A stretch of DNA of 64,000 bases from Ilex aquifolium (taxonomy: Eukaryota > Streptophyta > Magnoliopsida > Aquifoliales > Aquifoliaceae): the NCBI GenBank assembly GCA_951799425.1, contig OX637396.1, forward strand, positions 42,089,901-42,153,900, given 5' to 3'. The stretch's first letter is position 1, and the number at the start of each line of letters is the position of its first letter. Under the pieces are notes generated by a model. The model worked only from the letters and a program-made list of their open reading frames with translations. It was not told the DNA's origin and did not search any database. The position numbers and the translations under genes were made by a program. Below are positions 2,652 to 45,335 of the stretch, piece by piece.

Positions 2652-4889
2652 CTTCAACATCCAAGTCACCACACCCCACACCATGCAAGTCTTGAGAAAG
2701 TTCCTGTGTCTTCTCACATGTCACAGCTAGCATTCGCAGGTACTGAAACAACAGGCAAATCCAAGTGAATAAAAATATAACTATGGCATCACGTTTGAAT
2801 GGGTAGAAAATTGCAGTCATAGTAATTTAACCAAGAGAAGTCTGCATTCTTCCATAGGAGGTGGATTCACAAGAGATGGGTTCTTCACCAATAGCTTCTT
2901 GAGAAGTTTTGGAATTCTGTCCTCCAAATTTTGCTGCATACACACAGAACATTGTTCACAACTGTGAGATCACCAACCAATACCATCCTGGTATCCCCTC
3001 CAATACAATGAACTAACACCAAAACCATGGGAACAAAAAGAAAGGTGTTCATCATGAAATACCTGAACCAAAATTGGCATTCATCATTAGGAGAAGGAAA
3101 TACAACCGTCATGGTAGCTGCTTCTTTTCACACAGAATCCGCAACAAATCTTAACCATTAAATCAAGATCAATGAAAAGACACAACAACTTTGAACAGAT
3201 CAAGGATAGTACTTCAAACTAGGTTGGGGACTCTGGTAATCCAGAACTAATCTTGTGTCTGCATTCATGGCCTCCATGTCAAACATTGGGCATAATCCAA
3301 TATAATGTTGCATGGCACCAGTACCCCTGTTGAACTGCATTGCAAATCAAGCAGGTAAGAAGAAGAAAGGAAAAAACTTCCCTAAAGATTATAACAGTTC
3401 TTTAAAAACTTACTGAGTTCCATCCTATACCGAAAGTAGCAAATTGAAACAATAGTCTATAATCACAATGAATAAATACTAAATCCTTGACACACAGAAT
3501 CTTTTGAAAACCAGATAACCCCCTTATCTGAATGCATTCATCTATCCATATGTGAAGGTGAAAAAAGAAAGAAAAGTCTATAGCATTGTATGGTTTCCAA
3601 GATAGTATTGCTGTTCATGAGCATGTTGGAGTTATTACAAGCAACAGAAGGAACATATCAAAAATCAGATCCAGTTTTTGCAACACAAACCAATAAACTA
3701 AAACATGACAATTAGATGCAATTGAAGAAACCATAACAAGATTGGGAAAAAATAGAACAAGAACAACAGCAGTAGAAAGTTTAAATTGCCTTGTTTAATC
3801 TCAGAATGCCCACACACAAAAATATACTTTCAAATATTTGTTCTTTTGAAAGTAGGAGTCTGGAGTAGTTAGTCAATTCTTTCAAAACATTAAAAAGTAT
3901 AAATGAATTCCAAGAAACGGTGGGTAAATATGCAGATCTGTTCACCCTCACCATGTTACAAAAAGCATTACCAAAGTGTCTATGAAAGGCCATGCAAATT
4001 GACCTTCTAGGTAAAGCATTGTCTAGCATGCCCAGGAAACAAAAATACTCTAGCTTCTATGATTCACCTTTTGAAATGGAAATACCAAACATGCCTCAAT
4101 GTTTTTGATTGAATATAAAGGTTTGGGTGGTGGTGAAAGGGGTGATGTTCTTTGGAATTGTGCTTTCTTTGCAATAGTGTGGGTCATTTGGATGGAAAGA
4201 AATTCTAGAATTTTTTAAGATAAAAAAGATGTGAAGGAAGGGATGTGGGATCGAATTTATTTCCTTGCATAATTTTGGGCCTCCATTACAAAGGAGGTCG
4301 AAAGTATTACCTCAAGTTGGATGGCATCGTGTGGGAGATAATTTTCTTTTGATGGCTGTTTAGTTTTTGTATTTTGCTCTTTTTTTGTATGTTTGAGGGT
4401 TGGACTACTTGTTCACCCTTGCTTGCACCTTTTTTTGGTTCTTATCAATGAAAAGTTTGTTTCTTATAAAAAAAAAAAGTGCCTGCTGTGTGTTTGCTAG
4501 GTGTTGCACATATAGTACCAGGTTTGGTTAAAGCCGTGTCCAAGAGCTGGGAATTTAGGGGAAGGAGTCTAATCCTATGTATTTCTATCATTAGCTGGTG
4601 GAGATTGTGGAAACCATAGCAGAATAGGTGATTCGACAAGTTGATGGTTCAGTATAAGGCATCTACAATCTAGGTTGATTAACATTTCCATTCTTTAGTA
4701 ATTTATGTGTTCCCTAACATGCATCTTGCACAATTTCTATTTGTAGAGAAAAAAATCATATCGTGAAATGAACAAATAAACGTCACCGAAATAACCTGAG
4801 ACAAAATTTGAGGACACTCTGCCATGGTAGACAATTCTCTTCTCTGTGATGCTGCATCAAATCGAGTCGGCAACCTGTTCTCCACTTCT
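2652..4889 (-). pseudogene. SEC10: Exocyst SEC10 relic, middle exons
   Basis: Five exon-like segments lie in the order of an authentic SEC10 (exocyst subunit that tethers secretory vesicles to the plasma membrane). 4889-4796 reads RFDAASQRRELSTMAEC and ends in a GT donor. 3334 to about 3210 reads FNRGTGAMQHYIG and then MNADTRLVL. About 3149-3063 reads KEAATMTVVFPSPND. 2933-2832 reads KNPSLVNPPPMEE and is open. 2742-2652 reads YLRMLAV and GCGDLDVE, open, with both splice sites. Breaks are a TGA at 3128-3130 where the family has Arg, and a one-base deletion after PSPND. A LINE end sits in the intron between the first two exons. Introns are retained, so this is not a processed copy. The start, N-terminus and most other exons are absent. 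Confidence 0.85.
4085..4478 (+). mobile_element. Truncated LINE (L1-type) 3' end with poly(A)
   Basis: The plus strand encodes a decayed reverse-transcriptase-type zinc-binding tail with the motif AIVWVIWMERNSRIF followed by a stop. A T-rich 3' UTR and an 11-base poly(A) tract (4468-4478) come next. WxxWxERNxRIF is typical of the C-terminus of plant L1-like LINEs. The element is 5'-truncated and I could not find a target-site duplication. It lies in the intron between two SEC10-like exons in the opposite orientation. Confidence 0.8.
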
Positions 4890-5436
4890 TACACAAGCTT
4901 GAACAAGAAAACACGATATGCTAGTATAGAATTTACCAAAAAAAATTAGCAAGGAGGAAATCTGTGAGCCTATTTAACCTCCAAGTCCTAAATGTTTCAA
5001 CTTTGGAACTTTCAACAATTAATACACAAATGGGGCTCTCACTTTACTATTCACATATGGAGAAAAGCAATTTAATGGATTCATAGTCTCTAACATATGT
5101 CAATCATTTGCGCTACTTCTAGTGAACGCCTGACCAACTTTTTGTAATTTATTTTATAGCGAAATGCACATAATTCTTATTAACCAAATGTTAAATGCAT
5201 GCAACAACTCTTTCCCACAAATAAAATCATGACCATCAAACTAAATGGAGAGCTCGGTCACAGGCGGTGATGGGATCATGTACCATGACAAGCTATGATG
5301 GTTGTGGACTAAAAGGAAAATCTCAGACAAAATGGCATTTGCACTTATGCCAGTATTACTAGATATGACAGAAGAAATTAGTAGCAGAAAAAAAATTAAC
5401 TGAGGGTCACAAAGATGGCAGACGAGAAATAGGTAC

Positions 5437-6729
5437 CAATTCAGTCAAGAAGGCTTGTTTGTTAAGATCTTCTAGTGCAGTGAATGTAGCCTCAAGCACA
5501 TGGAAGAGGTATGCCACAACCCTGGCTAAAGGGAAAAGAAACATGGGCACATACCTGCCACTTGTAAGCAAAAAAGCAAAAGAGATGACAACAAAAAGGA
5601 CGAAAGGAAACAAGTTCAAGTTAAAATATGCTGCAACGAATGCCTTGAGGTAGTGCCATGAGATAAAATGATATCATTTTAATGCCAGGACATGCCTATA
5701 TTTTCTATGCTCTGCGAAACAGAACAATAGATTCAATATTGATTCAGTTCCCAGAAACATTCTCACATATTAGAAATATTTTTTCACCTAAAGTTCTATG
5801 GTTGTCAAGTTGGACAAACCTTGTGCAGGCATTGTTCGGCCGATGATCAGGAGTGAAAGAGAGAAAAATTGTTTCCATTGCTGTGGAATAAGAAATCTTT
5901 GTATCTTAATGCACATATTAAATTTCTCAGAGCTATTAGAGCAATCTAATGAGGCTACTATGAAATGTTGACTCATGAGTGGGGCAAGCTCTTCTATTCT
6001 GGTTCTTATCAATACACAAATGTATCACTCACCAAGAATTTCAATTGCACTAATATTCATTCTGTAGGAATTGGTTCAACCTTTTCCTAGCCCCTTCTCA
6101 TCAATGAACTCCTGAAATATACAAAGAACGCCCCCAATCAGTACAATGGAATGCATCTATTTTTCTATCTCTCGACTCGAAATGAAAGCATGTTTGAAAA
6201 AGGGTCTTAAAATGTGTAGGGTTGGGCTTGGAAGGTCTCTTAACGTCTTCTTTTTTCTTCTCATCTGAGTTATTTAACAAAGACTTGCCATGGTAAGGAA
6301 GAAAGGGTGATGCCATGCCATGCCATCATCAGATGATTGATAATCTGTTACTTTTTTGTTCAGCTGAGGGCCATTTATCAACCTATATCAGTTATCCAAT
6401 GAAAAATATTCACGTCTAAAATGAGATGACTAGCAAAAGAACCGAAGAAACACGCGTGACCTAAGTGCCTTTCATTTTTAACTGACTACTTGTCATAGAA
6501 AGACCAAAGCAGAGGTATAGCTGAAGAACAATTTATTTAATTGAGCCACTTAATGAAAGAATGGCCTGCTTTAGCATACATAAACCAGAGTGTACGCTTC
6601 AAAATCTTAAATTACAAACCTCAGCCATACCTGTTTCAATGCATCAGCACCCTCTGCAACGGACATAGCTGCAGCAATTTGAGCACCATCCAAAGGAAGT
6701 AAAAGCCCATAAATAGAGTTTACAAAGTA
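5437..6729 (-). pseudogene. SEC10: Exocyst SEC10 relic, late exons
   Basis: Four exon-like segments match the C-terminal third of SEC10. 6729-6631 is 33 codons, open, reading YFVNSIYGLLLPLDGAQ with both splice sites. About 6382-6318 reads VDKWPSAEQKS then, after a one-base shift, TDYQSSDDGMA. 5880-5820 ends in DHRPNNACT and a GT donor. 5521-5437 reads VVAYLFHVLEATFTAL and NKQAFLTEL, 85 bases, phases matching the previous exon. In the intact protein these residues follow the segments found at 2.65-4.89 kb, yet here they lie upstream of them on the same strand. The order is therefore permuted. The frameshift and missing exons make a functional product unlikely. Confidence 0.85.
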
Positions 6730-7054
6730 CTACAGAAAAAGTTCAAATCAATACAGGATTCAAGAAGTATCGGGCCATTCCCCCCAAGCATTCGAATGGG
6801 TAAAAGAATCCAAGAATCCTTAGTGTAATCGAATTTTTTTAAATGCTTTAATCCAAACTCATTGCTAACATGAAGTAGTATTTTGCACAAAAGAAAATAA
6901 AATAAAAAGGGCAGAAACCCACACTTGTTTTCAGCAGCATAAATTTTAGAACAAGAAATTTCAATTCAGCATAAGAAAAGATGATTAGAAAGAAAATGGG
7001 ATACTCATAAAAAATGATCACATTTTGAAATTCTATTTCTACCTATTAGTCTAC

Positions 7055-7181
7055 CTTCACATCTGAAGAGAAGTTTGTGACTATTTTTTTGTATCCCGCT
7101 TTCTTCGGCTGAAAATTCACCCACCTCAGCAAGATTTTCTCAGGTGGTAGGCTCATCAGCTCCTCCACATCCTGATAGTTT
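7055..7181 (-). pseudogene. FIM: Fimbrin exon relic (second CH domain region)
   Basis: One exon between an AG acceptor and a GT donor reads [19 protein letters not shown], then [11 protein letters not shown] and VTNFSSDVK without a stop. This is the hallmark of the plant fimbrin calponin-homology region that bundles F-actin. No adjacent fimbrin exon of the same region was found. The neighbour downstream is the SEC10 late-exon relic. Within fimbrin it should precede the piece at 11.66-12.53 kb, but it lies 3' of it. Confidence 0.85.
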
Positions 7182-7540
7182 CTGACATAAAATAATGAAA
7201 TGCATCAGAGGTAACACATGGCATAATTCCACTAATTGGTGCAAGACCAAAAGCCGGTGAGAGAACATTTTTCACCTCACTATCATTGATCAACTCCACC
7301 GAGTGTTTTCTTCAGATTGAGGTCTGCCAGCAGTTGTATTTAGGAATAGCATGCATTAACCATGTCCAATTTAATCCAAAATACACAGTAAAATTCTTAT
7401 GTAGATAGTATTTAATATTAGACAAAGGGATCCTTGTGATACAAAGCTTTGGGAATCCAACATCTCCAAAATTTTGGATAAGTGGATACTTGAAGAATCT
7501 CACTAACGATCTGAGATATTAATTCTTTCTTTTTGCCACT

Positions 7541-7670
7541 TCTACATGTAGGCTTGGTCTTAGCCACTTCTACATGTAGGCTTGGTCTTAGCCACATGAT
7601 CTGAGGCATTAATCCTTTCTGGTAATCCTTTCTTTTTGCCGCTTCTACATGTAGGCTTGGTCTTAGCTCT
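7541..7670. repeat. Short tandem repeats of a 25-base unit
   Basis: The unit CTTCTACATGTAGGCTTGG plus CTTAGC occurs twice in direct succession near 7541-7592 and again near 7640-7666. A related single copy is at about 16650. Confidence 0.8.
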
Positions 7671-8335
7671 AGCTCTTCCCTTGTGGAAAAATATAATTAA
7701 GAAAGATAGTTCATGTCACAACCAATAAATATTAGAAGTGCTGGTCACATAGTTTAGATGGCCTCCAAGTAACAACATTTTGTTTCAAGTGATTAAAAGT
7801 GACCAACGAATGAGAAAATCTGACATAATATTAACAAGCCTGTCAAACCACAACGCGACTCGTACTATTATGCAGACACATGAATAATGCAATTTTATGA
7901 TGATGAACAAGGTCTTCCATAACCATTATGCATGATTTTACAACAACGGCATGACGCATACATCTAACTTTCAATAATAACCACTCTGGGACAAATTAAA
8001 GCAATATGTTACCTGGATTGAAGGCCAAAGCATCAAGCAACAAAAAGAAGTTGCATATATGAATAAGAAACAACCAATTTTGGAAGGTATTAATACAACT
8101 TGATGGTGAACTAAGGCACAAAACTACTTTTGTCGCTCTATCAACTTCACCATGTCTACAACTAAACAATTCGCAAGTGCAAAACACACGAATATGGAGG
8201 AGGCAAATTGTGGGTTAAACTAGTTGTGAGCAGATTGATGACGAGTTGGTTGTAATTCAAATCCAATAAATTTTCAACCTGTTTAACAAATGAGTTATAA
8301 CGGGTTGGTATAAATTAATAATCCCGTAACAAATG
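7630..8335. repeat. Segmental duplication block, copy 1
   Basis: This roughly 700-base stretch is highly similar to 16640-17400, sharing for example CCTCCAAGTAACAACATTTTG and TACCTGGATTGAAGGCCAA. The second copy has extra internal repeats and indels. No coding content was recognised in either copy. The block leads directly into the tandem array that follows. Confidence 0.85.
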
Positions 8336-10925
8336 GCCAAAAACATTAAGAAAAGCACGCACTAATCAAAATACAAACACAGACACACAAACACAAAAAG
8401 CGCACGCATAAACATATAGATAACATAAAAAAATACACAAGGTAACACATTATACAGAAAAACAAATTGTAAAAAAAAAAAAAAAATACAATATAAGACA
8501 CAAACCACTCTAGTAGTTCTATGAATTTCATTATGTCTAGATCTAAACAATTCGCAAGTGTAAAGCACACGAAGATAAAGGAGGCAAATTGCGGGTTTTA
8601 CTAGTTATGGGTGGATTGATGACGAGTAGGTTGTAATCCAAATCCAAAATAAGTAAAAAAAAATAATAATATAGGCAAGCACTCATAAAATACAAACAGA
8701 GACACACATGATTAAGGTACACGCATTTACACATAAAAACACACAGATAAACACATAGATAACATTAAAAATACTCACCGTAACACATTATACGAAAAAA
8801 CAATGTGGAAAAAAAAAATATACAAACACTGTAGTAAAAACCTACACACCCCACCCAATATACTTCTAAAAAAACCATAAACAAAAACACCATATAAGAA
8901 TGAAACACAAAAACACATAGTGCACATCAAAACATATAGATAACCAAAAAAAAAAAATACACATGGTAAACATTATACAGAAAAGCAAATTGAAAAAAGA
9001 AAAATACAATGTAAGACACAAACTACTCTAGTAGTTCTATCAACTTCACTATTTCTAGATCTAAACAATTCGGGAGTGCAAAGCACACGAAGAAAAAAGA
9101 GACAAATTGCAGGTTGGACTAATTGTGGGAGGTTGGTGATGAGTAGGTTGTAATCCAAATCCAACTCATTTTCAAATCATTTAACAAATGAGTTATAACA
9201 GATTTGACCATAACGAGTTGGATTAAATTCGTAAACCCGTGAAAAAATAAGTAAAAAACATTACCATAAACAAGCACTCATAAAATACAAACAGAGACAC
9301 ACATGATAAAAGTACACGCACTAACACATAAAAACACACACATAAACACATAGATAACATCAAAAATACTCACGATAAGACATTATACAGGAAAATAATG
9401 TGGAAAAAAAAATAAAAAAACACTAGAAAAAACCTACACACCCCACCCAATACACTTATAAAAAAAAAACATACACAAAAACACCATATAAGAAAGAAAC
9501 ACACAAACACATAGAACACATAAAAACATATAGATAACAAAAAAAATACACATGGTACCAAATTATACAGAAAAACAAATTAGATAAAGAAAAATACAAT
9601 GTAAGACGTAAACAATTCGCCAGTGCAAAGCACACGGAGAAAAAGGAGGCAAATTGTGGGTTGGACTAATTGTGGGTGGATTGGTGATGAGTAGGTTGTA
9701 ATCCAAATCCAACTCTTTTTCAAATCGTTTAACAAATGAGTTATAACATATTTGACCATAACGAGTTGGATTAAATTCGTAACCCGTAAAAAAATTACCA
9801 TAGACAAACACTCATAAAATACAACCAGAAATACAAATGATAAAAGTACACGCACTAACACATAAAAACACACACATAAACACATAGATAATAAAAAATG
9901 CTCACGATAAGACATTATACAGAAAAATAATGTAGAAAAAAAAAATACAAAAACACTGTAGTAAAAACCTACACACCCCACCCAATACACTTATAAAAAA
10001 AAAACATACACAAAAACGTCATATAAGAACGAAACACACAAACATATAAAAATATATAGATAACAAAAAAAAAAAAATACACATGGTAACACATTATACA
10101 GAAAAACAAATTGAAAAAAGAAAAATACAATATAAGACCCAAACTACTCTAATAGTTCTATCAACTTCACTATCTCTAGATCTAAACAATTCACGAGTGC
10201 AACGCACAAAAAGATAAGGAGGCAAATTACGAGTTGGAATAGTTGTGGGTGGATTGATGACGAGTAAGTTATAATCCAAATCCAACTCATTTTCAAACCG
10301 TTTAACAAATGAATTATAACATATTTGACCATAATGGGTTAGACTAAATTTGTAAACCCGTAAAAAATAACTAAAAAAACATTAATATAGGCAAGCACTC
10401 ATAAAATACAAACAGAGACACACATGATAAAAGTACACGCATTAACACATAAAAAAACACATAAACACCTAGATAACATTAAAAATACTCACGGTAACAC
10501 ATTATATAGAAAAACAACGTGGAAAAAGAAAAATACAGAAACATAGTAGTAAAAATCTACACACCCCACCCAATACACATACAAAAAAAAAATACACAAA
10601 AACACCTTATAAGAATAAAACGCAAAAACACATAGTGCACATCAAAACATATAGCTGACAAAAAAAAATACACATGGTAACATATTATACAAAAAAATAA
10701 ATTGAAAAAAGAAAAATGCAATGTAAGACGCAAACTACTCTAGTAGTTCTATCAACTTCACTATCTCTAGATCTAAACAATTCGCGAGTGCAAAGTAAAC
10801 GGAGAAAAAGAAGGCAAATTGCCGATTGGACTAGTTGTGGGTGGATTGGTGATGAGCAGGTTGTAATCCAAATCCAACTCATTTTCAAACCGTTTAACAA
10901 ATGAGTTATAACAGAGTTGAGGCAT
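8095..10925. repeat. Tandem array of 0.5-0.6 kb units with A/C-rich half
   Basis: Each unit has a conserved block of about 200 bases (TAGTTCTATCAACTTCAC, AACAATTCGCGAGTGCAAAG, GGTTGTAATCCAAATCCAA) and an A/C-rich half (CACACATAAACACATAGATAAC). Conserved blocks start near 8095, 8505, 9020, 9600, 10140 and 10730, giving spacings of about 410-590 bases. Two further units lie at 17.16 and 17.61 kb. The units differ by indels and substitutions, so the array is old or turning over slowly. Confidence 0.88.
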
Positions 10926-11205
10926 AGGGTATAATTCCCATTTTTTTCACAGATTGGGTACTCTCTAGTGTTGATGGCGGGACTACCACATTGATAAGCT
11001 TACGGCATGACACAAAATGCTTCTAATTAATTGAACCAACAACAATATACAACAATCTTGAAAAATAAAGGGAAATCTCTAGACATATATATGGGTACAA
11101 GAAGCACAATAAGTGGGTGATGATCACCAAATAAGAACTCCATCCTTCGCAATTTCAAATTGGTCATTAGTTGAAGGATCTATAGGAAGGTAGCAATTTA
11201 AAGAG
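10917..11205. repeat. Duplicated 290-bp block, copy 1
   Basis: This is closely similar to 14080-14370. Both contain GAGTTGAGGCATAGGGTAT and GAACTCCATCCTTC and end in AGTTGAAGGATCTATAGGAA. They lie 3.2 kb apart in direct orientation and bracket the fimbrin and DRP1 exon relics. Confidence 0.88.
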
Positions 11206-11659
11206 AATTCAGATCATGTTATACCTGTAAAAGAGAGGGCGATGCCGCTAGAGTGCAACAGTTGAACCATGTGCTATCCACTTTAGTGGATACAGTACCT
11301 TTGTAAATCAAAATCATAAGCTAACAATTTGATTCCAACGTGTCCAAAGCTTAAAGCAGACATGCTCAGATAAACGTATTGGATTTGGTCTGTGGACTTA
11401 GAATCTTAGATGGACCTAATGGGGATCATGCGTATTTATTCAAGAACTGTTAAACCATTTACCCAAAAAAAACCCCAAGGGACTCTTCCTAAATTCCCAG
11501 CAAAGCACAATAGATTGGCTGGAAGTCCCACTATATGGAAGCACTTGTTTCCATGAGTTGGATTACAAATTTAGTTCCATCTCAGACATAATTGCACCTT
11601 GAGGCCTCAAGAAGTCAAACTTTAGAACTAAAACAACCCTCTAAAAGGTTTTAAATTAC

Positions 11660-12527
11660 CTCAGTTATGCCTTCAGGAAGAAAAATATTCAACATCCAAG
11701 CTTCCTCGCAATACTGATGATGTTGGTTGCAATCATCTTTTTCTCCTCCTCTACATTACCCCAAATTTTAAAGAAGAAAAGAATCAGTTTCAAGTATCTT
11801 AGTAGTGAAATGAAGCCAAAGACAAGCAAGAACCATTAGTATCATACAAAATGGCTAGCACAATCCCAGACAGCTAGAAAAATACTTCCATAAAGAATGT
11901 GCATGATTTTGTATCCGTCCACGTACATTATGTAGAATATATTATTTTCAAGACCTCCTTTATTATATCAAAATCTAATTATGCTCCAAATGCACCTAAA
12001 GGTTTAGCAATTACATACAAACAAACGGCAAAAAGAAATTTCAAAGTTGTAAATTCAAAACAATTGACGACACTTCCCTGCCTCTGAAATGATCAACACG
12101 GACAACTCAGTACATGCTGTAGCTGCATAATTAAACAGCCCAGAGGACAAAGACACAATTCAACTCCAATCTCAATATACCTTTTCACTTCCACAAAACT
12201 TTTAATGAAAAATACACATGGATAAAGGGACACACATGCATGCATATCGTTTCAAGATGCAATGAATCAAATCATACACTGTCCTTCATACTAAGCATAA
12301 TGCAATGTTGCTTCATATGGCTTGAACAAATAAAATAAGCAACGACAAAGAAGATCTTTAAGCAATATTATGAACAACTAGTAAAAAAAATTTAGAAGCT
12401 TTTCATTGCATAAATTGGAAGACGGCATACCCTTTTCTCCTTTTGTAACACGACTCCGATTGACCACTTGAGGATGTACAGCACTAAGCAGCTCAAGGAG
12501 GAAAATTCCATTTAATAAACTATTATC
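11660..12527 (-). pseudogene. FIM: Fimbrin exon relic (fourth CH domain region)
   Basis: Two consecutive exons are visible. 12527-12431 reads NSLLNGIFLLELLSAV then VTKGEK. 11750-11660 reads EEEKKMIATNIISIARKLGC, a stop, then IFFLPEGITEV. Exon phases join correctly through GT/AG introns, as in plant fimbrin's last actin-binding module. The TGA at 11689-11691 replaces the family's Ser codon. With no other exons nearby, this is a broken fragment. It precedes the earlier-coding fimbrin exon at 7.1 kb on the same strand, so the gene order is scrambled. Confidence 0.88.
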
Positions 12528-13355
12528 CTGCAAAATCACAGTTCATATCTAAACCATAAACTGTAGTTGCAATTTGAAATTGGGCCACTTAAAACCAACT
12601 TAATAAGCAATTCAAATCACACTCAGATTGAATTTGCATTCAGAGGACAATTACTACATTACGCCAAACAAGTAATAGGCTTTAAGCATCAGTCTGCAGC
12701 ATGTTAAGGACCACTGCAAGCAAGCAATGCCAAACAAGCAATGGTTATTCAGAAAGCTAAAGGTAGTTCTTACAAGAAATTGGAGTTCTAAACTCATCAA
12801 GGATAAAAGGATCAAGGACATGTACTTCAAAACTTCCTATATGGCTCTGGCTTCCCGAATTCATCACTGCGGAGCTATCCTACTCTGAAAGAGGGAGAAG
12901 CAGGTGCACAATTAGCCCTTTAAGCACAAAGTTCAAGTAACAATAAACCAAATGTAAAATTAGCACGATCTTAAAAATGGCTAAATCACGTAAAACAATG
13001 TATTCACATCTTGATTCTTGTCTCACGAAGTCGTTGATTCTCATTCCATCCTTTCCTAACTTACATGTTAATCAATAGTGATGTCCATTTCGATTAGATA
13101 ACCTATATTTCCTCTCCGTGGACTTGTTATTTTTTAACCACATGGTTTTCGTTATCAAGGTTGCTAGCCCTAGAACTCTCACAAGATTTTAATCCTCGGT
13201 TTTGGTGGTTGTGTAATCCAATTTTAATTTATAATGTCCTCAACTAGTACTCATATAAAAAGCAGTGTAAACAAACCAACCTTCATTGTGATTAGGATTT
13301 ACCATGCACAGACAATTAGATTGCAAAACGAAAATGAGCACCAAATCTATCTCAC

Positions 13356-13933: not shown

Positions 13934-14079
13934 AAATGACATTCTGAAACGTCCACATAAGGAAACCGGGATATCAGAAGTTTCACTCCACAAGAGAGCA
14001 TTCATCTATAAAATGAAATCATTACACACGCTTCCTTCAATCAAATCCTAAGTCCTTTTATTGCAACGCCATGGCAGAG

Positions 14080-14370
14080 TTGAGGCATAGGGTATCATTC
14101 CCATTCCCCTCTCACGGATTGAGTACTCCCTTCATTCATCGGTTGTGTGCTTGACGGTCACATTGATAAAAGCTTATTGCACGACACAAAATGCTTCTAA
14201 TTAATCGAACCAACAAAAATATACAACAATCTTGAAATATGAAGGGAAATCTTTAGACATACATATGCAAACAAATAAGCACAACAAGTGGGAGATGATC
14301 ACCAAATCAGAACTCCATCCTTCACAATTTAAAAGAGGTCATTAGTTGAAGGATCTATAGGAATGTATCA
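14080..14370. repeat. Duplicated 290-bp block, copy 2
   Basis: This is the second copy of the block at 10917-11205 in direct orientation, with about 10-15 percent mismatch by eye. Confidence 0.85.
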
Positions 14371-14916
14371 TTTTAAGAATACACTTATGCAAGGTATTTA
14401 TTGATACGTGAAACATAAGATGCTTGATTCTCTTACCATGTGACGCAATTTAGAAAATAGTAGATTTAAGGAATGCTGATGAGTTCTTTGCACCACATCC
14501 TTTTCTTAGATTCAGATGGGATTGCAGAGAAGACAAAAAACTGAAAAACTGATAAGCATAGAAGACAAAAAAAATGATAAGTACAAGAACAGAATTTTGA
14601 ATTGGTCAACAAAAATGGAAAAACTCAATCCAAAATTTATAGTCTTTGCCGCCCAAAACCTATGGAATAAGAGAAAGAAGTAGAACCAGAGAGGAAAAGA
14701 AACTCGAGCCTGATGACTTATGTAGTTATGTTACTTCGATTTCTGAAAACTGCAAAGTTCACATGGACTAAACCACATAGGTGAATACTTAAGCTCAAAT
14801 GAGATGATTTTTTGACTTTCTTGGTAATCCTGAAAATCAAAAAAACAATGTGGATTTCAATTGCTAGTTTTTTCACACACACACATCCATCCATATATGC
14901 ACACGTAAATATTTAC

Positions 14917-15236
14917 CTGAAGAAAGAGTTCACAATGGACATCATCATCAAGTTCTGATAGAAATCTGGAAGAAAAGAAGCTCCAACTCCATAAAGTTCT
15001 CGTTCAAGTATTTCAGTCCCTACATCTTATGACCAATCAGCAAGTTTGACGTCACCGTTCTCTCTCATTGTCATGAACTGCAAGAACCGTGAGTATACCA
15101 CATCAAGATGCAATCCACTAATATAGCAAAGATTGTACATGAATTTTTGAGCTGGACAGAGCTTACGCAAGTCTTCAATCTTTGAAGCTCCACCTATGTG
15201 AACTGGTTCGAAGCCATGGATCTGATAATAACATCC
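14917..15236 (-). pseudogene. Unidentified exon relic with one internal stop
   Basis: A 320-base segment lies between a plausible acceptor (TTTTGTAG) and donor (CAG then GTAAAT). It encodes about 106 codons in one frame, interrupted only by TAA at 15027-15029. The frame reads IHGFEPVHIGGASKIEDLRK, then MYNLCYISGLHLDVVYSRF, then ERELYGVGASFLPDFYQNL. It has the composition of a conserved globular protein, but I do not recognise the family. Its orientation matches the other relics. Confidence 0.6.
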
Positions 15237-15899
15237 CTACAAAACCAGTAATTATTGAATTTTTTCTCACTTAAAATTTGTGGAGAGAAAGAAACTCAAA
15301 AAATTAGTTTCTCTCTAAATCCAACAAATTTCCTCCCCCTATCTGTGTTCTTCTGTTTGTCTGTTTCTCTCAGGCTTGGAAAGGTAGACTCAATAGTTAA
15401 AACCCGCTAAGTTAGGGCAACAGTTCAAAATTCTAGATCACTCTCCACAATGGAAATTTAATTATAAATGAAAAAGGTAAATTAAACCAAAGAAATAGAA
15501 CAAAAAAAAATGCAGAGCAAAATGGTGTCATCACATGATGTTTAGTTTTCCCTATCGTAGTAGTCCCCAAAAATTGTGATTCCAAATTCTATTACGTGTG
15601 ACTTAAGGAGAGATCCAGAAGAAAGTAGAGCAAGATTGACCAGAAAAAAACAAAAGGGCAAATATATCAAAATAAACATATTTTTTAATTTCCAAATCCA
15701 TAATTGCAGAGACAACACTCAGCTCCTATCATCATAAGCAACACCGAATCAATTATACAAAGCTAACAGTACATCTTGCATTATACAAACTTTCGGCCAA
15801 TGCTAGAAATATGGGAATCTAATCTTTCAAAGCTATTAAACAAGCCATGTACACCGTTTTCCAGCTGAAAATTGAGACATGCATAAAACGTGGCTGACA

Positions 15900-16300
15900 G
15901 TACATCTAACTGATAAACATACTAAAAATACACGCAAACATAAAAAAACAAACACATAGCAAACACAAAAAACACACACAAACACATTGATGACATAAAA
16001 ATACAAACAATAGTAAATAAACACCCACACACACACATTACACACATAAAAAATATAAAAACACATTAAGAAAATAAAAATACACTCAACATAATAAAAA
16101 CATAAACAGCCACACCCAAAGACAATACACATAAAAAGACATAGACAAAAACAAGTTGATGAAGGAAAAACACACTCGCAAATACATTGATAAAAAATAT
16201 TATAAATACACTGACAAAACACACACACACTGATAAACACTCACACATTAATAAAAAAAAAATACAGGATACACAATAAAACATACATAGACACATTGAT
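15900..16300. repeat. A/C-rich low-complexity tract
   Basis: This resembles the A/C-rich halves of the tandem array units. Long minus-strand frames here are composition artefacts. Confidence 0.8.
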
Positions 16301-16639
16301 AAATATAGACTCTTAAGTGTTCTATTCAACTGACATCGACTTTGAGTGATCTACTCGAGCATATTACTTTAGTTGGTTGATATGTTTGAATGGAATCTTC
16401 GGTTCATCATTGAAACGTCTGGGTGCAACCTTATTAGGATAATGGTGGTGTTTAAAACAGTGGAGCAGTGGTGGTTCAAGATAAGTACTTACTTATATTC
16501 AGTTCAACCCATTGAACACCCATATCCATCCCCACTTTACTAATTTGAGTGGTATTACCAAATCCACTTACAGCCCACAAAAACAAATTAGGCACCCAAC
16601 TCGCTAATTTGTGGGCATACTGGTTACTGATAAATAAGG

Positions 16640-17400
16640 AATGCCGTTTCTACATGTTGGCTTCGTCTTAGCATCTAGCTCTTCCCTTGCGAACAATATA
16701 ATTAATAAAAGATAATTCATGACACAACCAAAAATTATTAGAAGTACTGGTCACATTGTTATGTGGCCTCCAAGTAACAACATTTTGTTTCTAGAGATTA
16801 AAACTGACCAACAAACGAGAAAATCTGACAAATTAAAGGAAGATGGTACCTGGATTGAAGGCCAAGCCACAACGCGACTCCCATTATTATGCACACATAT
16901 GAATAATGCGATTTTATGATGATGGACAAGGTCTGTCATAACCATTATGCAAACATTATTTTACCATGATGGCATGACGCAGACATCTAACTTTCAACAT
17001 AACGACCACAATGTGACAAATTAAAGGACGATGTTACCTGGATTGAAGGCCAAAGCATCAAGCAACAAAAGGAAGTTGCACATAAAAGGCATGAATGAGA
17101 AACAACTAATTTTGGAAGGTATTAATACAACTTGATGGTGAAATAAGACACAAAACTACTCTTGTCGCTCTATCAACTTCGCTTTATCAACTTCTCCTTA
17201 TCAACTTCTCCATATCTACATCTAAACAATTCACGAGTGGAAAACGGACATAGATAGAGGCAAATTACAGGTTGGACTAGTTGTGGGCAGATTGATGATG
17301 AGTCGGTTGTAATCTAAATCCAACTAATTTCTAACTCGTTTAACAAATGAGTTATAACGGATTTGGTCATAATGGGTTGGATTAAATTCGTAAACCCTTA
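16640..17400. repeat. Segmental duplication block, copy 2
   Basis: This is the direct-orientation counterpart of 7630-8335. It contains GATTGAAGGCCAAGCCACAA at about 16852 and the related GATTGAAGGCCAAAGCATCA at about 17041, so this copy carries an extra internal duplication. Confidence 0.82.
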
Positions 17401-18245
17401 AAAAATAGTCAAAAACATTAACAAAGAAACGCAATAATAAAAATGCAAATAGAGACACACATGATAAAAATACATGCACTGGCACATAAAAACACACACA
17501 CAATCACAAAAAGCACACACAAAAACACATAGATAACCTAAAAAATACACACGATAACATTACACAGAAAAACAAATTAAAAAAAGAAAAATGCAGTGTA
17601 ATACAAACTATTCTAGTAGCTATATCAACTTCACCATGTCTAAATCTAAATAATTTACGAGTGCAAAGTACATGAGGAAAAAGGGGGCAAATTGCGGGTC
17701 AGACTAGTTGTGGGCAGATTGATGACAAGTAGGTTGTAATCCAAATCCAATTAATTTTCAACCCCGTTTATCAAAGGAGTTATAACGGAGTTGGTCATAA
17801 CGGATTGGCTTAAATTAGTAAACTCGTAAAAAAATAGTCAAAAACATTAGCATAAGCAAGCACTGATAAAAATACAAACAGAGACACACATGATGAAAGT
17901 ACATGCACTAACACATAAACACTTAGATAACATAAAAAATACACACGGTAACACATTATACAAAAAAACAAATTGAAAAAAGAAAAATACAGAAACACTA
18001 TAGTAAAAACATACACAACCAACCCAATACACTTAGAAAACACATACACATAAACATCATAAAAGAACGATACACACAAACACATAGTGCACATAAAAAC
18101 AACACACCCCCTGCCACCGCCACAATAAACATACACACTAGATCTAGAAAATCATAGAAAAAATAGACACACTAATACACAGTAAAACGCAATAACAAAT
18201 ACACATAGTTATAGAAGAATACAAGATACACACACATACACACTT
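17155..18245. repeat. Second tandem array, two units
   Basis: Conserved blocks start at about 17160 and 17610, each followed by the A/C-rich half, as in the 8.1-10.9 kb array. The array stops at about 18.25 kb against a Helitron-like terminus. Confidence 0.85.
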
Positions 18246-18251
18246 ATAAAT

Positions 18252-18340
18252 ATTAGGTATTGCACACGTGCGTTGCACGTGGATCATTTTATTTTAAATA
18301 TAAAAAATACACTAAATTTGTTGAATACTTTCTCTAAAAC
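18252..18340 (-). mobile_element. Helitron-like 3' end (body to the right)
   Basis: On the minus strand a perfect 7-bp-arm hairpin (CACGTGC, loop AAC, GCACGTG; 18281-18265) is followed by 8 bases and CTAAT (18256-18252). This is the expected Helitron 3' terminus. If real, the element extends rightwards and could include the PFK and DRP1 pieces at 20.7-25.1 kb. I did not locate a 5' TC end. Confidence 0.5.
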
Positions 18341-20339
18341 TCATAACCTTAATGATTAACAAACAATCTAGAACCACGTCCCATATTCTTCAAATAATAT
18401 GGGACAAACTATTTAAGAGTTTTAGGTGTATAGACATCCCATCACCATTTCGGCCTTGTTGCTACAGTTTTTGTAGATTCAGATATACCTATTTGCAAAA
18501 TAGAGAAAGAAGTTGGATGATAGGGATAATAAGTTTACAATATGAAGGTCAAGTACAAGAGAAAAACAAACCATAAACCTAGAAATATAGAAAGAGTGCA
18601 AATTTGCTCTTGCAAGATGAGCGCAATATAGGTCGCAGAAAGTTGGAATTCAAAAGTGTCAATTCAAATGTAAAAACAATGACAAATTTATGTATGAAAA
18701 ATAATTGATTATCACTTGATTAATGCATGGAAAATACAAATTTATGCATTTCCATGACTCTACCATCAAGCCAATTATGGTCCACTTAACCCAGCAAATC
18801 ACACTACCACAAAAACTGGGAAGACAAAAAAATTGACTTAAAAAAGATGCAATGTTTTAATACCTGGCTGCACACAAGACCACATCATCACTGATTGCAC
18901 ATCCGTTAAAGCATATAATATAATAATCTCAATGCAAATGCACGATGTATTAATAGACCTAAAATAAACCATCAAAGAACATCCCTCAATTATAAAAAAA
19001 AAGCTTCCCCGAATGACTAATCATATATGTACAAGCAATAGAATATGTTATAATCATAGCATAGCGTTCCCATATTATTGAGGGAAGGAGATAAGTTGGG
19101 GAAAGCACAAAGGTCTTTTGATTGATCATGAATAAGCGGATGTACAATTCCCGACATCTTCTGTCATACTTTTTCAATTTCCATTGAGACGAAATAAGCC
19201 AACAAGGGTTGTCTTGACCGGCTAAGTGAATTTCCTAAACAAATCAATAATCATAAATTAATTAAAATCATGATAATTAAGCAAGGATTTGGTGATTAAT
19301 AAATTAGCAAAAGTTAATTTTTAATTTCTATGTTGTTAGATGTCTGCCAAAAAAAGTTAAAGCTTAATGACACGTTTAGAAACTTTTTTTTTTTTGGATA
19401 ACGAAAATATTTCTAAAATGATAAGCTACACAAATATCAAACTAAACAGTGAAAACTATTAATTTAAAGTATGGCTTCGGGCATCAATGTTCAATTGCAC
19501 TTTGGAAAAACAATATCGTCAGGATGTTTACCAATTTGATAAAATTATTATGTTGTTTTTCATGAAAATATCTCTCTTGATGGGAAAAATTCATGGACTA
19601 CAAAGCATGGAGTAAATCTCGAAAGGAGATCACCAACATATATGCATGTAAAACAGGACCAGATACAATACCAGTTAAGAGTGCCCACAATATAAGCCTG
19701 TGCATTCTCCAAGAAAATGTTATATAACCCAAATAAAACCCTAAATTAAAACTCAAATGCATATCATCCCTTGGATGAGTGTGAAACGAGTGGATCTCAC
19801 TGAAAAAGTTGATGAGACACATTCATCCAACAGATGATATGCATTTGGGTTACAATTTTTTATGTTTCATTTGAGTTTTGTAGCATTGCTTGTTTTCCAA
19901 TACCTTGTTGAATGCATCTTGACTCTTGCTCTGCACAGCTATCATTGCTGGATGTGTTTAAGTGATCTTTTGGTCCTCATGAAGCCATGTAATCAATAAG
20001 TATATTCATCAAAGCCATGCAACATGTTTTAATGAAATTTTCAGAAATTTGTACACACTTCAAATTCAAAACAAATTGACAATTATGCACATACATGGGG
20101 TTCTAATTGAACAATAGGCGGTAACAATAGGCAGCCACTATTTGTTTAAAAAAAATGATAATTCAGTGTACTCCATGCAAGTATTTCTAAGCATTTTTCC
20201 CTACTTTCTAAGAATTAGGCAGCAAATAATTTGCAGGGACAAGTTGACCAAGGCCAAATGCAGCATATCAACTAAACTCTTCTAGCCATTTGCATGTTCA
20301 ACACCTGCCCTGCATATCAAACAACACAAATGATACTCA
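18341..20339. other. No intact gene; decayed sequence with one foldback
   Basis: I see no clear exon. Open frames at 18352-18576 (plus) and 18986-19177 (minus) have no recognisable motif. A small foldback lies at 19745-19855. Confidence 0.5.
19745..19855. mobile_element. Small foldback element (MITE-like)
   Basis: Imperfect inverted repeats AAATGCATATCATC and GATGATATGCATTT flank a short loop, extending through TGGATGAGTGTG and CACATTCATCCA. I saw no clear target-site duplication. Confidence 0.5.
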
Positions 20340-20690
20340 TAAAAGCATCTCCAGCCCTTCCTTTTTTTAAACTCAAATTTAAATTTGGCTTAAAAACTCA
20401 TAAAAAATTTCTCCAATTTTATACCCAAATTCATACCAAATTAAGGGAACTTAAATTTTTTTTCAAATCAAGAAAGACTCAAACATTTACTCAAATCTCG
20501 AATGATTAGATTCAATTCTCTTTTAAAGATCTAATAGTCATATTCTATGTTCTTTTAAATTTGGGTTTGTCCTCCTTTATATTTAAGTTTTTCCATTGAA
20601 GTGTTTTATATCAAATCAAGGTTTTTCCTCAAATACTAACTCATATTTGAGTAAAAATTTGAGTCAATACTTACAATTTACTAATAGGCA
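20340..20690. repeat. Dispersed about 340-bp repeat, copy 1
   Basis: This shares order and wording with 53150-53480: TTTTAAAGATCTAATA, then TTTTAAATTTG..TTTGTCC, then a closing TTTGAGT motif. It is probably a nonautonomous transposon, but the ends are not defined. Confidence 0.6.
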
Positions 20691-20726
20691 CGGGTAAAGA
20701 TTAAAACTTACCAAATTAAAACTTAC

Positions 20727-20789
20727 CCTTTGACGGGGTCCAGCACGTCTAAAATGTGTTCCTCTTGGACTGCTCTTGTGAACAATGAT
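20727..20789 (-). pseudogene. PFK: ATP-dependent 6-phosphofructokinase exon relic
   Basis: One 63-base exon (21 codons, phase 0, AG acceptor and GTAAG donor intact) reads [20 protein letters not shown] followed by R. This matches the conserved segment just before the nucleotide-binding glycine loop of plant PFK, which phosphorylates fructose 6-phosphate in glycolysis. No other PFK exon was found nearby, so it is an isolated captured or leftover exon. Confidence 0.75.
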
Positions 20790-21016
20790 CTGCAATGAAG
20801 GTATGAATGATATTTAAATAGGGGTCAATTATCATTTTTGCATTGGCCTATAGCCCCTTCTAACCCAAAAAATCCAGTTGTTGAAGACTCATCATAAACA
20901 ATCTCCTTTCGTTTTCTAAGAAATAGAGGGAAGCCACCCTCGGTAATGTAAACACCAACTTTTTAACAAAATTAAATCCATAGGTAACCTCCAAATCGTA
21001 GATTTGCCATAACTTC

Positions 21017-21331
21017 TCACTTAATAACATTCAAATACATTACGTATAATATAAGAATGTGTACCAATAGAGAAGTGAATGAAGACGATGGCAGATTGGA
21101 AAGGGCTTGTTGTACAAAGGACGATAAGCAATTGGTGTCGCCACATGCGTAGATGGAGAAGGTTCGACAATAATTCTTTTCAGCACAACGAAGCTTATGT
21201 TCTAAGCGATCGACGTGAGAGTCACAATCCTGGAAAAACTGCAAATTTTCAGCAACACACAATTCCTTCAATATAATGAACTGTGCTTCTGCTCCACCGT
21301 GGGGCACAACAATATTCACCGTCGCCATCAT
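21017..21331 (-). CDS. Hypothetical 104-codon ORF
   Basis: A clean ATG-initiated frame reads MMATVNIVVPHGGAEAQF and continues past a Cys/His-containing stretch (LRCAEKNYCRTFSIYACGD) to a hydrophobic tail. I do not recognise it. A GT-containing junction near the tail suggests that the last 20 residues may be intron read-through. It lies on the same strand as the captured exons around it and may be another fragment. Confidence 0.25.
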   Translation of the reverse strand: MMATVNIVVPHGGAEAQFIILKELCVAENLQFFQDCDSHVDRLEHKLRCAEKNYCRTFSIYACGDTNCLSSFVQQALSNLPSSSFTSLLVHILILYVMYLNVIK

Positions 21332-21744
21332 TTATCGTCGACTTTGATTTTGAAATCTCATGATAACACACTAATATTGCATGAGTTTATGTTATCCACC
21401 TCTCCGTTATAAAGATGAGAGCCAGTAGATGAAGGGATATTGAGAATTTATTGTGAGAATTGGTAGCATCACACTGTTGGTTTGTAGCCGATCAGGAAGA
21501 CGTAAAGTTGGATCAAATTCTAACTGGTAATTGGTCTATTCAATGTACAGTAAATTTGGAGGATAAGTATGACATAGTTGTAGTATTGGAGGGTAAAAGT
21601 GGAAAAAAAATGTTTTTCATGTATGCTGATATTTTAAAGTAGTATAGATAGACTTTGAGTGATCTATCCATATCCAACTAACATTTACTTTGATTGATCT
21701 ACTCGACAACATGTATCTCCAGATGGTGGATATGTGTAAATGGA

Positions 21745-22456
21745 GAGCATGTATCGAAGAATACTGGAGAGCTCTACAAAGAATTAAAAATGAGTTAAAG
21801 TATCAATGAACAAAACCACCAAACAAGTAGCACTTGACATCAGATTTGAAGTTCCGTGAGTTAACAAAACAAATCCCGATCAAGAAATCAACGAATTATA
21901 AGTACCACGATTAACAATCAAAGATCTCGAAAAACTATACATATGAAAAAGATAAAAAAGAAATAATCCGAAATCAAATCTCTCAACCAATAATTCAGAT
22001 TTGAAAAGAGAAGAGACAAGATTAATGAAGACTTACCAGAGCTATACAAGCAATTACAAATATATGTTGAATAATTAATGAACAAAACCATCGAACATCT
22101 AGCTCGTGAGGTCAGATTTAAAGTCCAATGAGACCACAAAACAGATACACATCAAGAAATCAAGATATTAGAAAAACCAAAATTAACAATCAAAGAAAAT
22201 CAAAGATCTCGAAAAATCTATAACACAGAAAAAAAAGGTAAAAAGATAAACAATGAGAAATCAAAACTCTCAACCCATGATTGAGATTTGAAGAAGATAA
22301 CAAACAAGATCACTGTATGGCAAGGTGTGATTCAATCACAAAAAATAAAAAAATAAAAAATTCACAATATTATCTTCAAAGAAACAAAAGAAGAAAAAAG
22401 AGAGATCTAACCTAACCACCGACGACGGCGCTGGAAGGGAAGGCCGACGACGGTGA
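21745..22456 (-). pseudogene. DRP1: DRP1 relic, copy C: exon 1 tail plus two exon-2-like repeats
   Basis: At about 22456-22412 the minus strand reads AFPSSAVVGG then TAG, matching the end of DRP1 exon 1 (LPSIAVVGGQ). CAG at the donor has become TAG. Downstream, two tandem units of about 275 bases each carry a decayed exon-2 start (SSGKSS-like at about 22044-22021, SSPVF at about 21776-21745) with the same intron-1 sequence. These are repeated partial copies of the P-loop exon. Confidence 0.72.
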
Positions 22457-23587
22457 TGTAAGATATTCATTCTTTTGCATGATCGGAGATGATTTTCCTT
22501 AACCAGAAGCAATTCAGCTTCAGATACCTTTACAAAATTCTGCAGTCTGAAAAATCAACAATATGTTTGACAAGCATGTTCTTAAAATTCAAGCCAGATA
22601 AGAAAAAGGATTCAAAAAGCATATGCAGTCAATGCTCTAGCATGAGCAACTCCACACACCATGCATTCCAAATGTTGCACAACAATGAACTCGGCTAGTT
22701 ATGTTGGAAACTTGGAATAAACATATTTAAGCATGTCTAGGAATAACTAATAACAAGTTGCTATATAAATTTGCATGCAGTTCATATAATTTATAAGACC
22801 TAGAAAAGTTGAGTATATTTCCAAATTATGAAAATCTATCCATACCAAGGTTACTCCTGAAGTGTATATTCATACTCGATACAACATGCCACTCTCACAT
22901 GAACTATACAGTTTGGTTGAAAGATTAGAAATAAGAAAAGTCAATAAACTATCCTTTTTTCTTTTACAATACCCCCCCCCAAAAAAAAAAAAAACCAAAA
23001 AAAAAAAACAAAAATCCAAGAAAACATTAGGATACCTTACCTGCTGAAATCTATTTTCAAGCTAGAAAATTGCTATTAGTAGTGGAGTCATAATTTTAAT
23101 CCAGTGGAGCCAATCTATAATAATTGAGATGTAGCATAGTATTTTGAATTTTATGAGGTTTCATCAATCAACTACTTAATTGTAGATTATCATGGCATCT
23201 ATGTACCCCATAACTGATCAATGAATATAGGATTTCAAAGAAATCTAGATAGTAGTGATTTCTTTCTATGAAAATAGTTAACATAAGTTGCCTGAACACC
23301 CCAATACAATCTAGCGTTCTTGTCTAATACTATGAGCTACCCAAGTACACATGATATAAAGGTATCTCCCATTTTCCAGATGAGTAAAGAAAAATGAACA
23401 ATTTCATACTTGAGAATCCTACAAAATTAGAATAAATTTACTTCAAGGTTTCTATAAATCATATTATATTAATTGTGAGAAAATTCATCATAAATATGAA
23501 GGAGTTCATTCCATGGCAGGGTCCCATTCACATGGATTTAATGCTCGAAACAAACAACAGAACTTCAGAATTCAAAAAGTGACTTAC

Positions 23588-25068
23588 CTTCTCAATATGT
23601 GATGGAACCATATTCTCAATGTCGTGCACAATACTATCAGGTTGACCCTCTACAATAATCCCGTTACTATAACATCAATCATTCAAATTCCGTATCTAAT
23701 GACATTTAGACATCTCCTTTTTCTGGGAAGTAAGGTACCTCGGCTGTCCAACCTTTATATCTCTTCTTTCTCAAGATAGGCTAACACACGACTTATAGCA
23801 CTTTGAAGCTTGTTGGGTAAGGGATCGTGTCCATCCATGAGGCTGATGAGTTATGTCTAGCGGCCATACTTTGATCACTCTGTATTGGTATTAAAAACGA
23901 AAAAAAAACATGCAGTACAAGGGTAATATGTAAACAAGAAACTATTTGGATAGTTGCAGATAACGGGAGATGCTGAACTCACCAACTGCTACTTTTGTGA
24001 GTCCAGCAAAAAATCAATCGGTGTTAAGTTCACAGCTGCAAAGATCAGACAACATGAAGAAGGGTAATATGTAAACAAGTGATTTACCTTCTCAATATAT
24101 GACCGCACCATATTCTCAATGTCCTGCACAACGCTGGGATACAACTTGACAGTTACAATCTTAGGCAGAAACAAATTAACAATCACAATGCATATTTCTG
24201 AGCAAGTGGTATCCTAACAATACTTACCAAAATCAGAGAACCTCTTTCTTGGGGCATGAGCAAATTCTGAATATTTTCTTCCTTCGTCAACCCTTTGGAA
24301 TTGGAGCTGTGAAACAAGAGGTCGTCGAGTAACAATCCCTGCATAAGACATGAGCACATCATTCTAATGCTCGCGGGATTTATACATGGATGGACATATT
24401 AGATTCATATCATTATACCCACAGCGTACAATTATACAGGTAATATTGGAAATACTAACAACATGAATCACCCGATCCACGAGGCAAAAAGTCTTCCAAC
24501 GATGCTCTCAAGCACCGAAGACTTCCCCGAGCTCTACAAACAATTAAAAATACATGTCAAGTAAGTAATGAACCCAAAAAAACAATGAACAACAGATTTG
24601 AAGTTCAGTGAGACAACAAAACAGATACAGATCAAGAAATCAACAAATTAGAACTACCACGATTTACAATCAAAGAAACTCAAAAGGTTTCGAAAATCTA
24701 TACACTGGAAAAAGATAGAAAGATAAAGAATGTGAAATCAAAACTCTTAGCCCGTATTCAGATTTGAAGAGGAGAACAGACAACATCATTGAAGACTTCC
24801 GAGAGCTCTATAAGCAATTAAAAATATGCGTTCAATAATCAACGATTTGAAGTCGACAACAAAACAGATGCACATCAATATATCAACAAAAAAGAACTAC
24901 CAAGATTAACAATCCAAGCAAATCAAATATCTCCAAAATCTGTACACAGAAAAAAAAAAAAAAAAAAAAGAAAGATAACGACGGCGATGGAAGGCAAGGC
25001 GTCCCAGAGAGTGTGTAAAGAGCTCTCCTCACCATGATCGCCTAGGGCCGATTATATCTCTGTATCGA
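23588..25068 (-). pseudogene. DRP1: DRP1 (dynamin-related) relic, copy B, exons 1, 2, 3 and 5
   Basis: Pieces follow the DRP1 order. About 25068-24977 is exon 1, reading [15 protein letters not shown], with no start ATG and two indels near IQR. About 24807-24781 is a decayed extra exon-2 start. 24533-24472 is exon 2, reading SSGKSSVLESIVG and then a two-base deletion. 24338-24228 is exon 3, reading IVTRRPLV with an intact frame and splice sites. About 24133-24088 is part of exon 5, reading QDIENMVRSYIEK. 23650-23588 is a second exon-5 piece, reading EGQPDSIVHDIENMV. Exon 4 is absent between exons 3 and 5. Dynamin P-loop residues GKS are kept but the frame is broken just after them. Confidence 0.85.
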
Positions 25069-25270
25069 TTGGGGCTGAGAGAGTGAGGAAGGAAGCGTAA
25101 GAAGTGGTAAGAAGGGAGGGCGGTGATTGATCAAAACTAGAGACTTGAAATTTATTGTCGAACGAACCAAAGTTTTTAAACGTTGGAGTGTCGCGGTGAC
25201 TTGCAAAACGGGTTTTCTTTGTTTCCTTTTCTGTCGCTGTTTTTTTTTTTAAACAAAACAAATGACATTT

Positions 25271-45176: not shown

Positions 45177-45335
45177 ATTAGGAGTAATCCATGTTCGAAG
45201 ATATAATACAATATGAATAATTTTGAAAGAGATGTTAATGATTATTGAATGAATCTATTTTAGACCATTAAATGAACTTACTGAAGTCTATCATATTTTA
45301 TATTATAAATTATAAATTTCGATAATGCTTATGAA
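45177..45335 (-). mobile_element. Helitron-like 3' end, diverged copy
   Basis: On the minus strand the stretch ends in CTAAT (45181-45177) followed by T, the usual Helitron insertion context. The block TGAATGAATC..TAGACC..AATGAACTTACTGAAGTC matches, inverted, the end at 1-344 and the copy at 51.1 kb. The hairpin is degenerate. Confidence 0.5.

Follow-up and report, generated by a model that had tools for sequence, protein, structure and literature searches.

The DNA considered here is a window of 64,000 nucleotides from Ilex aquifolium (C6:42089901-42153900, where C6 is contig OX637396.1 and other contigs are numbered likewise). Pieces of four host genes, SEC10, fimbrin (FIM), DRP1 and phosphofructokinase (PFK), are recognised in it, and relatives of these genes are found in the same genome. 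An initial annotation had described a mosaic of their exons, scrambled in order and all on the minus strand, and had pointed to Helitrons and Pack-MULEs (Pack-Mutator-like elements) as vehicles that accumulate gene pieces. The naming of the exons is borne out by PDB and Pfam matches and by the relatives within the genome. Parents were sought in one genome (800 Mb, 103 contigs), and the analysis combined a listing of minus-strand frames, a BLAST comparison of the window with itself (E up to 1e-6), genome searches and alignment to fetched loci. Copy numbers and absences taken from the genome searches hold among the matches listed. Parent genes were assessed from exon frames, and the FIM relative on C19 from the span of its matches.

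Pieces of SEC10, fimbrin and DRP1

Few single frames of the window give significant Pfam matches because the exons are short: one of 20 stop-free frames, FIM CH2, is found at E<0.001, three give weak matches consistent with their names (CH at 0.088, Dynamin_N at 0.14 and 0.18), two give weak unrelated matches and 14 have none. PDB sequence searches link frame 7049-7204 to plant fimbrin (1pxy, E 4.8e-14) and frame 13243-13494 to Arabidopsis DRP1A (3t34, E 2.4e-10). A protein typed from the SEC10 exons of C5 matches Pfam Sec10_HB (E 1.2e-114).

The SEC10 gene on C5 is matched by window pieces over about 1188.3-1196 kb. A genome search with its protein, used without the N-terminal part, places 15 of 23 rows on C5, five on C6, within the window, and three on C2. 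The middle part of the gene, exons and introns included (2410-5174, minus strand), is 75% identical to C5:1193576-1195986 in two rows and harbors a dispersed repeat at about 4094-4480, as judged from genome-search matches. The late part (5168-6815, minus strand) is 71-72% identical to C5:1189876-1191070. The plus strand of the window thus carries C5 1193576-1195986 first and 1189876-1191070 second, and alignment to C5 agrees with the earlier statement that late SEC10 exons precede middle ones. The two parts are joined head-to-tail, their matches overlapping by 7 bp (5168-5174). A further exon at 15792-15914 (minus strand) is 85% identical to C5:1200416-1200538 and adjoins an AC-rich repeat. 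We take this exon and its C5 counterpart to be a SEC10-like N-terminal exon, partly for the resemblance to plant SEC10; the C5 exon also matches C3 and C2:2.88 Mb.

The FIM relative spans C19:6717286-6724758, and window pieces are 65-75% identical to it. All FIM pieces lie on the minus strand and represent two copies. Copy 1 consists of the CH2 start (7050-7451; 75% to C19:6719993-6720367), which is the piece that matches 1pxy, and the CH1 region (10912-11252; 67% to C19:6718435-6718789 as far as 11211, and 86% to C2:7472074-7472450). Copy 2 consists of the CH4 region (11291-12890; 67-68% to C19:6722147-6724758 in two rows) and a piece running from the 5' end to the CH1 region (13931-15347; 65-75% to C19:6717286-6718950). 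The plus-strand order is therefore CH2 and CH1 from copy 1, then CH4, then CH1 with the 5' end from copy 2. A head-to-tail join at 11211/11291 jumps back 6.3 kb, and the CH1 region is present twice, at 10912-11211 and as part of 13931-15262. Alignment to C19 upholds the claim that CH4 exons precede CH2 when the minus strand is read, and places them before CH1 as well. Two exon assignments were amended: 2652-2969 belongs to SEC10, and 14888-15262 is the FIM 5' end.

The parent of the DRP1 pieces lies at C6:42039862-42044713, on the same strand and about 72 kb to the left of the copy. Its N-terminal exons are in frame and match a second DRP1 gene at C5:0.649-0.655 Mb. Two minus-strand pieces make up a first copy, DRP1-A. 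Part 2 (12886-13923) corresponds to C6:42042132-42043274, with 83% identity over the whole row and 87-88% in sub-rows; part 1 (21768-22444), comprising the end of exon 1 and a partly duplicated intron 1, is 75-79% identical to C6:42043303-42043712. DRP1 and FIM are interleaved, as DRP1-A part 2 sits between the CH4 and CH1/5'-end pieces of FIM copy 2. The second copy, DRP1-B (22460-28500, minus strand), begins head-to-tail after a 3.85-kb back-jump at 22444/22460 and tracks the entire parent stretch with gaps for nearly 5 kb, 5' flank included. A stretch around 42042000-42042900 of the parent is missing from it, and one exon piece is repeated there. Collinearity resumes once a terminal inverted repeat (TIR) element at 26413-28060 is stepped over, so that DRP1 homology reaches about 28500, past the end of the mosaic at 25068 given initially. 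Since DRP1-B carries exons and 5' flank collinear with the parent, it is unlikely to be a captured fragment.

SEC10, FIM and DRP1 pieces align with their parent loci across introns, which excludes retrocopies, as the initial annotation had concluded, and they are 8-36% diverged from the parents. The common strand is likewise confirmed: of the 33 rows that match the SEC10, FIM and DRP1 loci at 48 bits or more, 32 are in gene sense on the minus strand; the PFK piece is on this strand too. The exception, 170-254, is a short unrelated repeat outside the DRP1 gene, common with C6:42049413. The initial annotation would have been set aside had the parents been absent; in-order exon relatives exist for DRP1 on C6, SEC10 on C5 and FIM on C19, and that objection does not apply.

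A Helitron around the phosphofructokinase fragment

Helitrons, Mutator-like elements and long terminal repeat (LTR) elements each have well-known hallmarks. Those of a non-autonomous Helitron delimit a 3,396-bp element at 18253-21648 (minus strand), which has copies with matching ends elsewhere in the genome and two paralogous empty sites. Its minus-strand ends, A|TCTATACTACTTTAAAA (21648) and CACGTGCAACGCACGTGTGCAATACCTAA|T (18253), give the arrangement A|TC...CTAA|T. The insertion lies between A and T without target duplication, and the joined flanks, ATAAATA|TAGACT, align ungapped across the join to 16243-16394 and to C6:42088045-42088173, which represent empty sites. Relatives are found on C4, C16, C17 and C19, and C13 and C3 hold partial copies; the 5' TC and the 3' hairpin with CTRR are common to the copies. 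The C16 and C19 copies have the same 5' TCTATAC as this element. Its 3' end is CTAA, that of the C19 and C17 copies is CTAG, and that of the C4 copy is CAAG, which is not CTRR. Copy matches that reach an end stop no more than 8 bases from it, and the 5' side of the C4 copy ends early.

The PFK fragment lies inside this element at 20710-20993, on the minus strand and in sense. It is 70% identical to C3:47241215-47241527 over 316 aligned columns, and two C3 frames adjoining this match give Pfam PFK at E 1.5e-7 and 2.6e-4. A PDB search with the exon found no PFK, and the naming rests on the C3 relative. The exon recurs in the C4, C16 and C17 copies with 90-94% protein identity and as poorer pieces on C19 and C3. 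Within the Helitron, no stop-to-stop frame of at least 110 aa is present that could be Rep/helicase, which is not required of non-autonomous members. A 104-aa open frame at 21020-21331 (minus strand) is without Pfam match.

Only PFK enters the mosaic by this Helitron, and SEC10, FIM and DRP1 lie outside its ends. The Helitron-copy loci are absent among the matches listed for the SEC10, FIM and DRP1 queries. Accumulation by a Helitron, as first suggested, therefore holds for PFK and is not supported in the form of a single element collecting all four genes. The element resembles the maize-type gene-capturing Helitrons in its A|T target, 5' TC, hairpin before CTRR, sense gene fragment and dispersed copies. 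Maize Helitrons with several genes are attributed to stepwise capture in PMC3288121; in contrast to these, one gene piece is inside the element here and the other three genes are outside.

Joins, age and origin of the mosaic

Joins were read from a list of 28 pieces, hand-trimmed from the 33 rows by dropping three rows of the array, two of intron duplicates and the one for the short repeat, shifting one start from 24126 to 24153 and adding 28074-28500. It contains 25 joins and nine back-jumps of more than 30 bp. Without five AC-rich module pieces, five of 20 consecutive same-gene joins jump back (one in SEC10, one in FIM, three in DRP1), and no same-gene join changes strand. Matches overlap by 5-7 bp at some joins and leave gaps at others. 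The head-to-tail joins seen here, and copies that retain introns and flanks, are what a mosaic built by same-orientation duplication or break repair displays. On a smaller scale, duplications in the same orientation affect 58 bp of a DRP1 exon (23574/24074) and a unit of about 270 bp in a DRP1 intron, and they also include paired 257-bp repeats at 1630-2133 and the units of an AC-rich array at 8.1-10.9 kb.

The region is probably (at roughly two chances in three) what is left of a cluster of duplicate genes. Duplications in one orientation and deletions would have rearranged it, and AC-rich repeats, a Mutator-like element and a Helitron would have been added. DRP1 was duplicated locally, keeping its orientation, from a neighbour some 72 kb away, as their alignment shows; FIM and SEC10 would be older copies, made at the DNA level, of the genes on C19 and C5, the homology being plain and the route presumed. 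Repeated same-orientation duplications followed by partial deletions would then have broken and reordered the genes, events suggested by the joins, and the DRP1-FIM-DRP1-FIM interleaving could reflect an extra duplication of a boundary segment with loss of alternate halves. The AC-rich repeats, one Mutator-like TIR element and the one Helitron with its PFK fragment would be later insertions. Same-orientation duplication with partial loss accounts for the strand within genes and much of the scrambled order. Template switching or circular intermediates may also have contributed, chiefly in the case of SEC10 and of related packets on C2. A narrow literature search for an account combining SEC10, fimbrin and pseudogene, and none aimed otherwise at the locus, returned only unrelated material.

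Patch- or filler-DNA movement of genes, and tandem duplication at plant double-strand breaks, have reportedly been described by Wicker (2010) and by Vaughn and Bennetzen (2014). Gene movement by filler DNA is summarised in PMC3445842, and break repair in wheat is discussed in PMC6097286. With such patch- or filler-DNA movement and tandem duplication the locus has in common copies made at the DNA level that keep their introns, duplications of several sizes in one orientation, near and far sources and pseudogene fragments; a difference is that several genes are interleaved at one place.

The age of the copies was judged from synonymous divergence (Ks) and the ratio of nonsynonymous to synonymous divergence (Ka/Ks), taken from open, alignable exon stretches with few codons and few changes. 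The DRP1 genes of C6 and C5 serve as a control (Ks 0.41, Ka/Ks 0.07, 200 codons). FIM against C19 gives Ks 0.37, which resembles the control (p 0.76), and Ka/Ks 0.19 (113 codons); DRP1-B against its parent gives Ks 0.28 and Ka/Ks 0.22 (119 codons). These low ratios would fit genes that worked for a while and then decayed, and FIM and DRP1-B may have been under coding constraint for a time. DRP1-A (Ks 0.045, Ka/Ks 1.2, 66 codons, two synonymous and eight other changes) shows no coding constraint. SEC10 against C5 gives Ks 0.20 and Ka/Ks 0.45 (188 codons), and this copy appears younger than the C5-C6 split, which speaks against a simple in-place homeologue. An inverted C5-C6 duplicate block is defined by DRP1 (C5:0.65 Mb) and a bHLH gene (C5:0.59 Mb).

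Several results weigh against duplication and decay as the sole explanation. The C5 SEC10 gene, at 1.19 Mb, lies outside the position and orientation that the inverted block predicts, and the SEC10 Ks is below the DRP1 control (p 0.008); together these indicate that SEC10 reached the locus by a route not seen. For the same reasons of position, orientation and Ks, the idea that the window SEC10 is an in-place C6 homeologue is weakened. FIM is without a match in the inverted C5 block, among the matches listed. Pairing of the SEC10-like exon with the AC-rich repeat recurs on C3 and C2, which indicates that some SEC10-repeat joins are older and dispersed. There is no overlap between the middle and late SEC10 parts, a pattern that a circle would likewise produce, and the Ka/Ks values rest on few changes and are lowered by the choice of open, alignable frames. 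The strongest contrary results are inverted blocks on C2, which simple tandem duplication does not give.

One such place, C2:7592411-7595395, is stitched from window 3622-3291 (inverted), window 2022-3294 (direct, 94%), C6:42038560-42038668 (direct) and window 1573-353 (inverted), with a 5-bp overlap at one join. Its direct block (C2:7592745-7594020, 94%) crosses from the 257-bp repeat, which ends at 2133, into SEC10, which starts at 2410, so this passage predates the C2 copy. Another, C2:7471539-7474199, combines FIM, an AC-rich unit, an intron piece of the DRP1 parent and an inverted piece of C6:42086510-42086911. The two C2 mosaics, 120 kb apart, consist of pieces from C6:42.038-42.114 Mb, and each contains inverted blocks. 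These relatives make repair- or circle-based shuffling plausible without proving it. Circular DNA or template-switching repair could have excised or copied segments and returned them permuted, here and on C2: SEC10 lies as B-A against A-B on C5, with the 7-bp overlap and no part duplicated, and the C6 pieces at C2:7592411-7595395 occur in both orientations with their 5-bp overlap. For human segmental duplications, a change from A-B to B-A has been proposed as the mark of circular intermediates (PMC7450558), and the SEC10 parts show this change with a very short overlap; unlike those cases, the locus has no known second permuted copy, and its FIM and DRP1 copies overlap. Such overlap is what tandem duplication predicts, tandem duplication plus deletion would also give B-A, and the short overlaps could be chance, all of which makes this explanation unlikely. 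It is rather less probable still that the end region of C6 is a recurrent hot spot of shuffling, from which segments were excised as circles or template-switched, permuted (as in the B-A order of SEC10), reinserted and sent to C2 (7.47 and 7.59 Mb) without transposon capture.

Stepwise capture of SEC10, FIM and DRP1 by one old Helitron or other transposon, whose ends have since decayed, is distinctly unlikely. It would explain the strand common to all pieces. Pieces of one gene move together, however, so the independent count is four genes, and since four genes share a strand by chance one time in eight, this is weak evidence for one vehicle. Capture would also be consistent with the SEC10-like exon and AC-rich repeat at a minimum of five C3 places and at C2:2.88 Mb, with the presence of Helitrons in the genome and with the 94% repeat-to-SEC10 stretch shared with C2:7592745-7594020. 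Another point for it is the outcome of a scan for termini in the first 27 kb, where hairpin-CTRR sites number five and average 1.05 in 20 shuffles. Two of the five belong to the PFK Helitron and to a small element at 343, and the others lie at 16738, 25622 and 26630. Among these three, only 25622 (plus strand), a weak site, could end an element spanning the mosaic, and neither a 5' partner nor copies are known for it; the terminus scans found no terminal pair around the 2.4-25 kb mosaic. The only inverted pair around it in the self-comparison, 170-277 with 51182-51289, is a small repeat with further copies, and DRP1-B is local, with its own 5' flank. A large Helitron around the mosaic was rejected because the scans found no enclosing ends, and a Pack-MULE because no TIR with target duplication encloses it in the self-comparison, the 26413-28060 element lying inside the DRP1-B flank.

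That an assembly error joined unrelated contigs is scarcely credible. The odd order alone would suggest it, but the pieces are 8-36% diverged from their parents, the repeat-SEC10 stretch recurs on C2, and 800 Mb are assembled in 103 contigs. Duplication and decay with a true Helitron nested inside would mean that a same-strand, multi-gene exon mosaic can resemble a gene-collecting transposon and arise mainly without one. Parental alignment, coordinate back-jumps and empty-site paralogues separate the two cases, which is of use to annotators and in studies of exon shuffling.

Repeats and neighbouring features

The AC-rich array (7637-10926) consists of successive units about 520-600 bp apart in the self-comparison, and part of a unit is also found in a late SEC10 intron on C5 (C5:1188994-1189517). 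A further copy of the family (15913-18252) is collinear with C2:2880741-2882284 and C3:3195992-3197572 to about 17594; it is split by the Helitron, and its right part resumes from 21649. At C3:3.195-3.378 Mb and C2:2.8806-2.8825 Mb, the family has a central module between AC-rich direct repeats. Related places are clustered on C3, at least six in number, with the SEC10-like exon nearby in five. As the module occurs on C2 and C3 too, it may be a repeat that entered the SEC10 intron instead of originating from it.

The Mutator-like TIR element in the DRP1-B 5' flank (26413-28060) has 81-bp inverted ends that are 91% identical and a 9-bp target duplication, TATAAAAAA. A short Helitron-like element at 171-343 (plus strand) has the 5' end TCTATAATATTAAA, a hairpin and the 3' end CCCCTAG|T, and its relatives lie at 45198-45310, 51177-51289, C6:42088889, C6:42089639 and C6:42049418. 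Scans of the window for tRNAs and RNA families found nothing. The bHLH gene of the inverted block, a bHLH-MYC gene, lies at 38491-40410 (minus strand), with its homeologue at C5:591820-593703. An LTR-like stretch at 28526-30938 (TGTAACG...TGTTACA), with GGGGA on both sides, is possibly a solo LTR, and a long inverted repeat at 61141-61738, 84% identical over about 600 bp, is possibly a foldback element.

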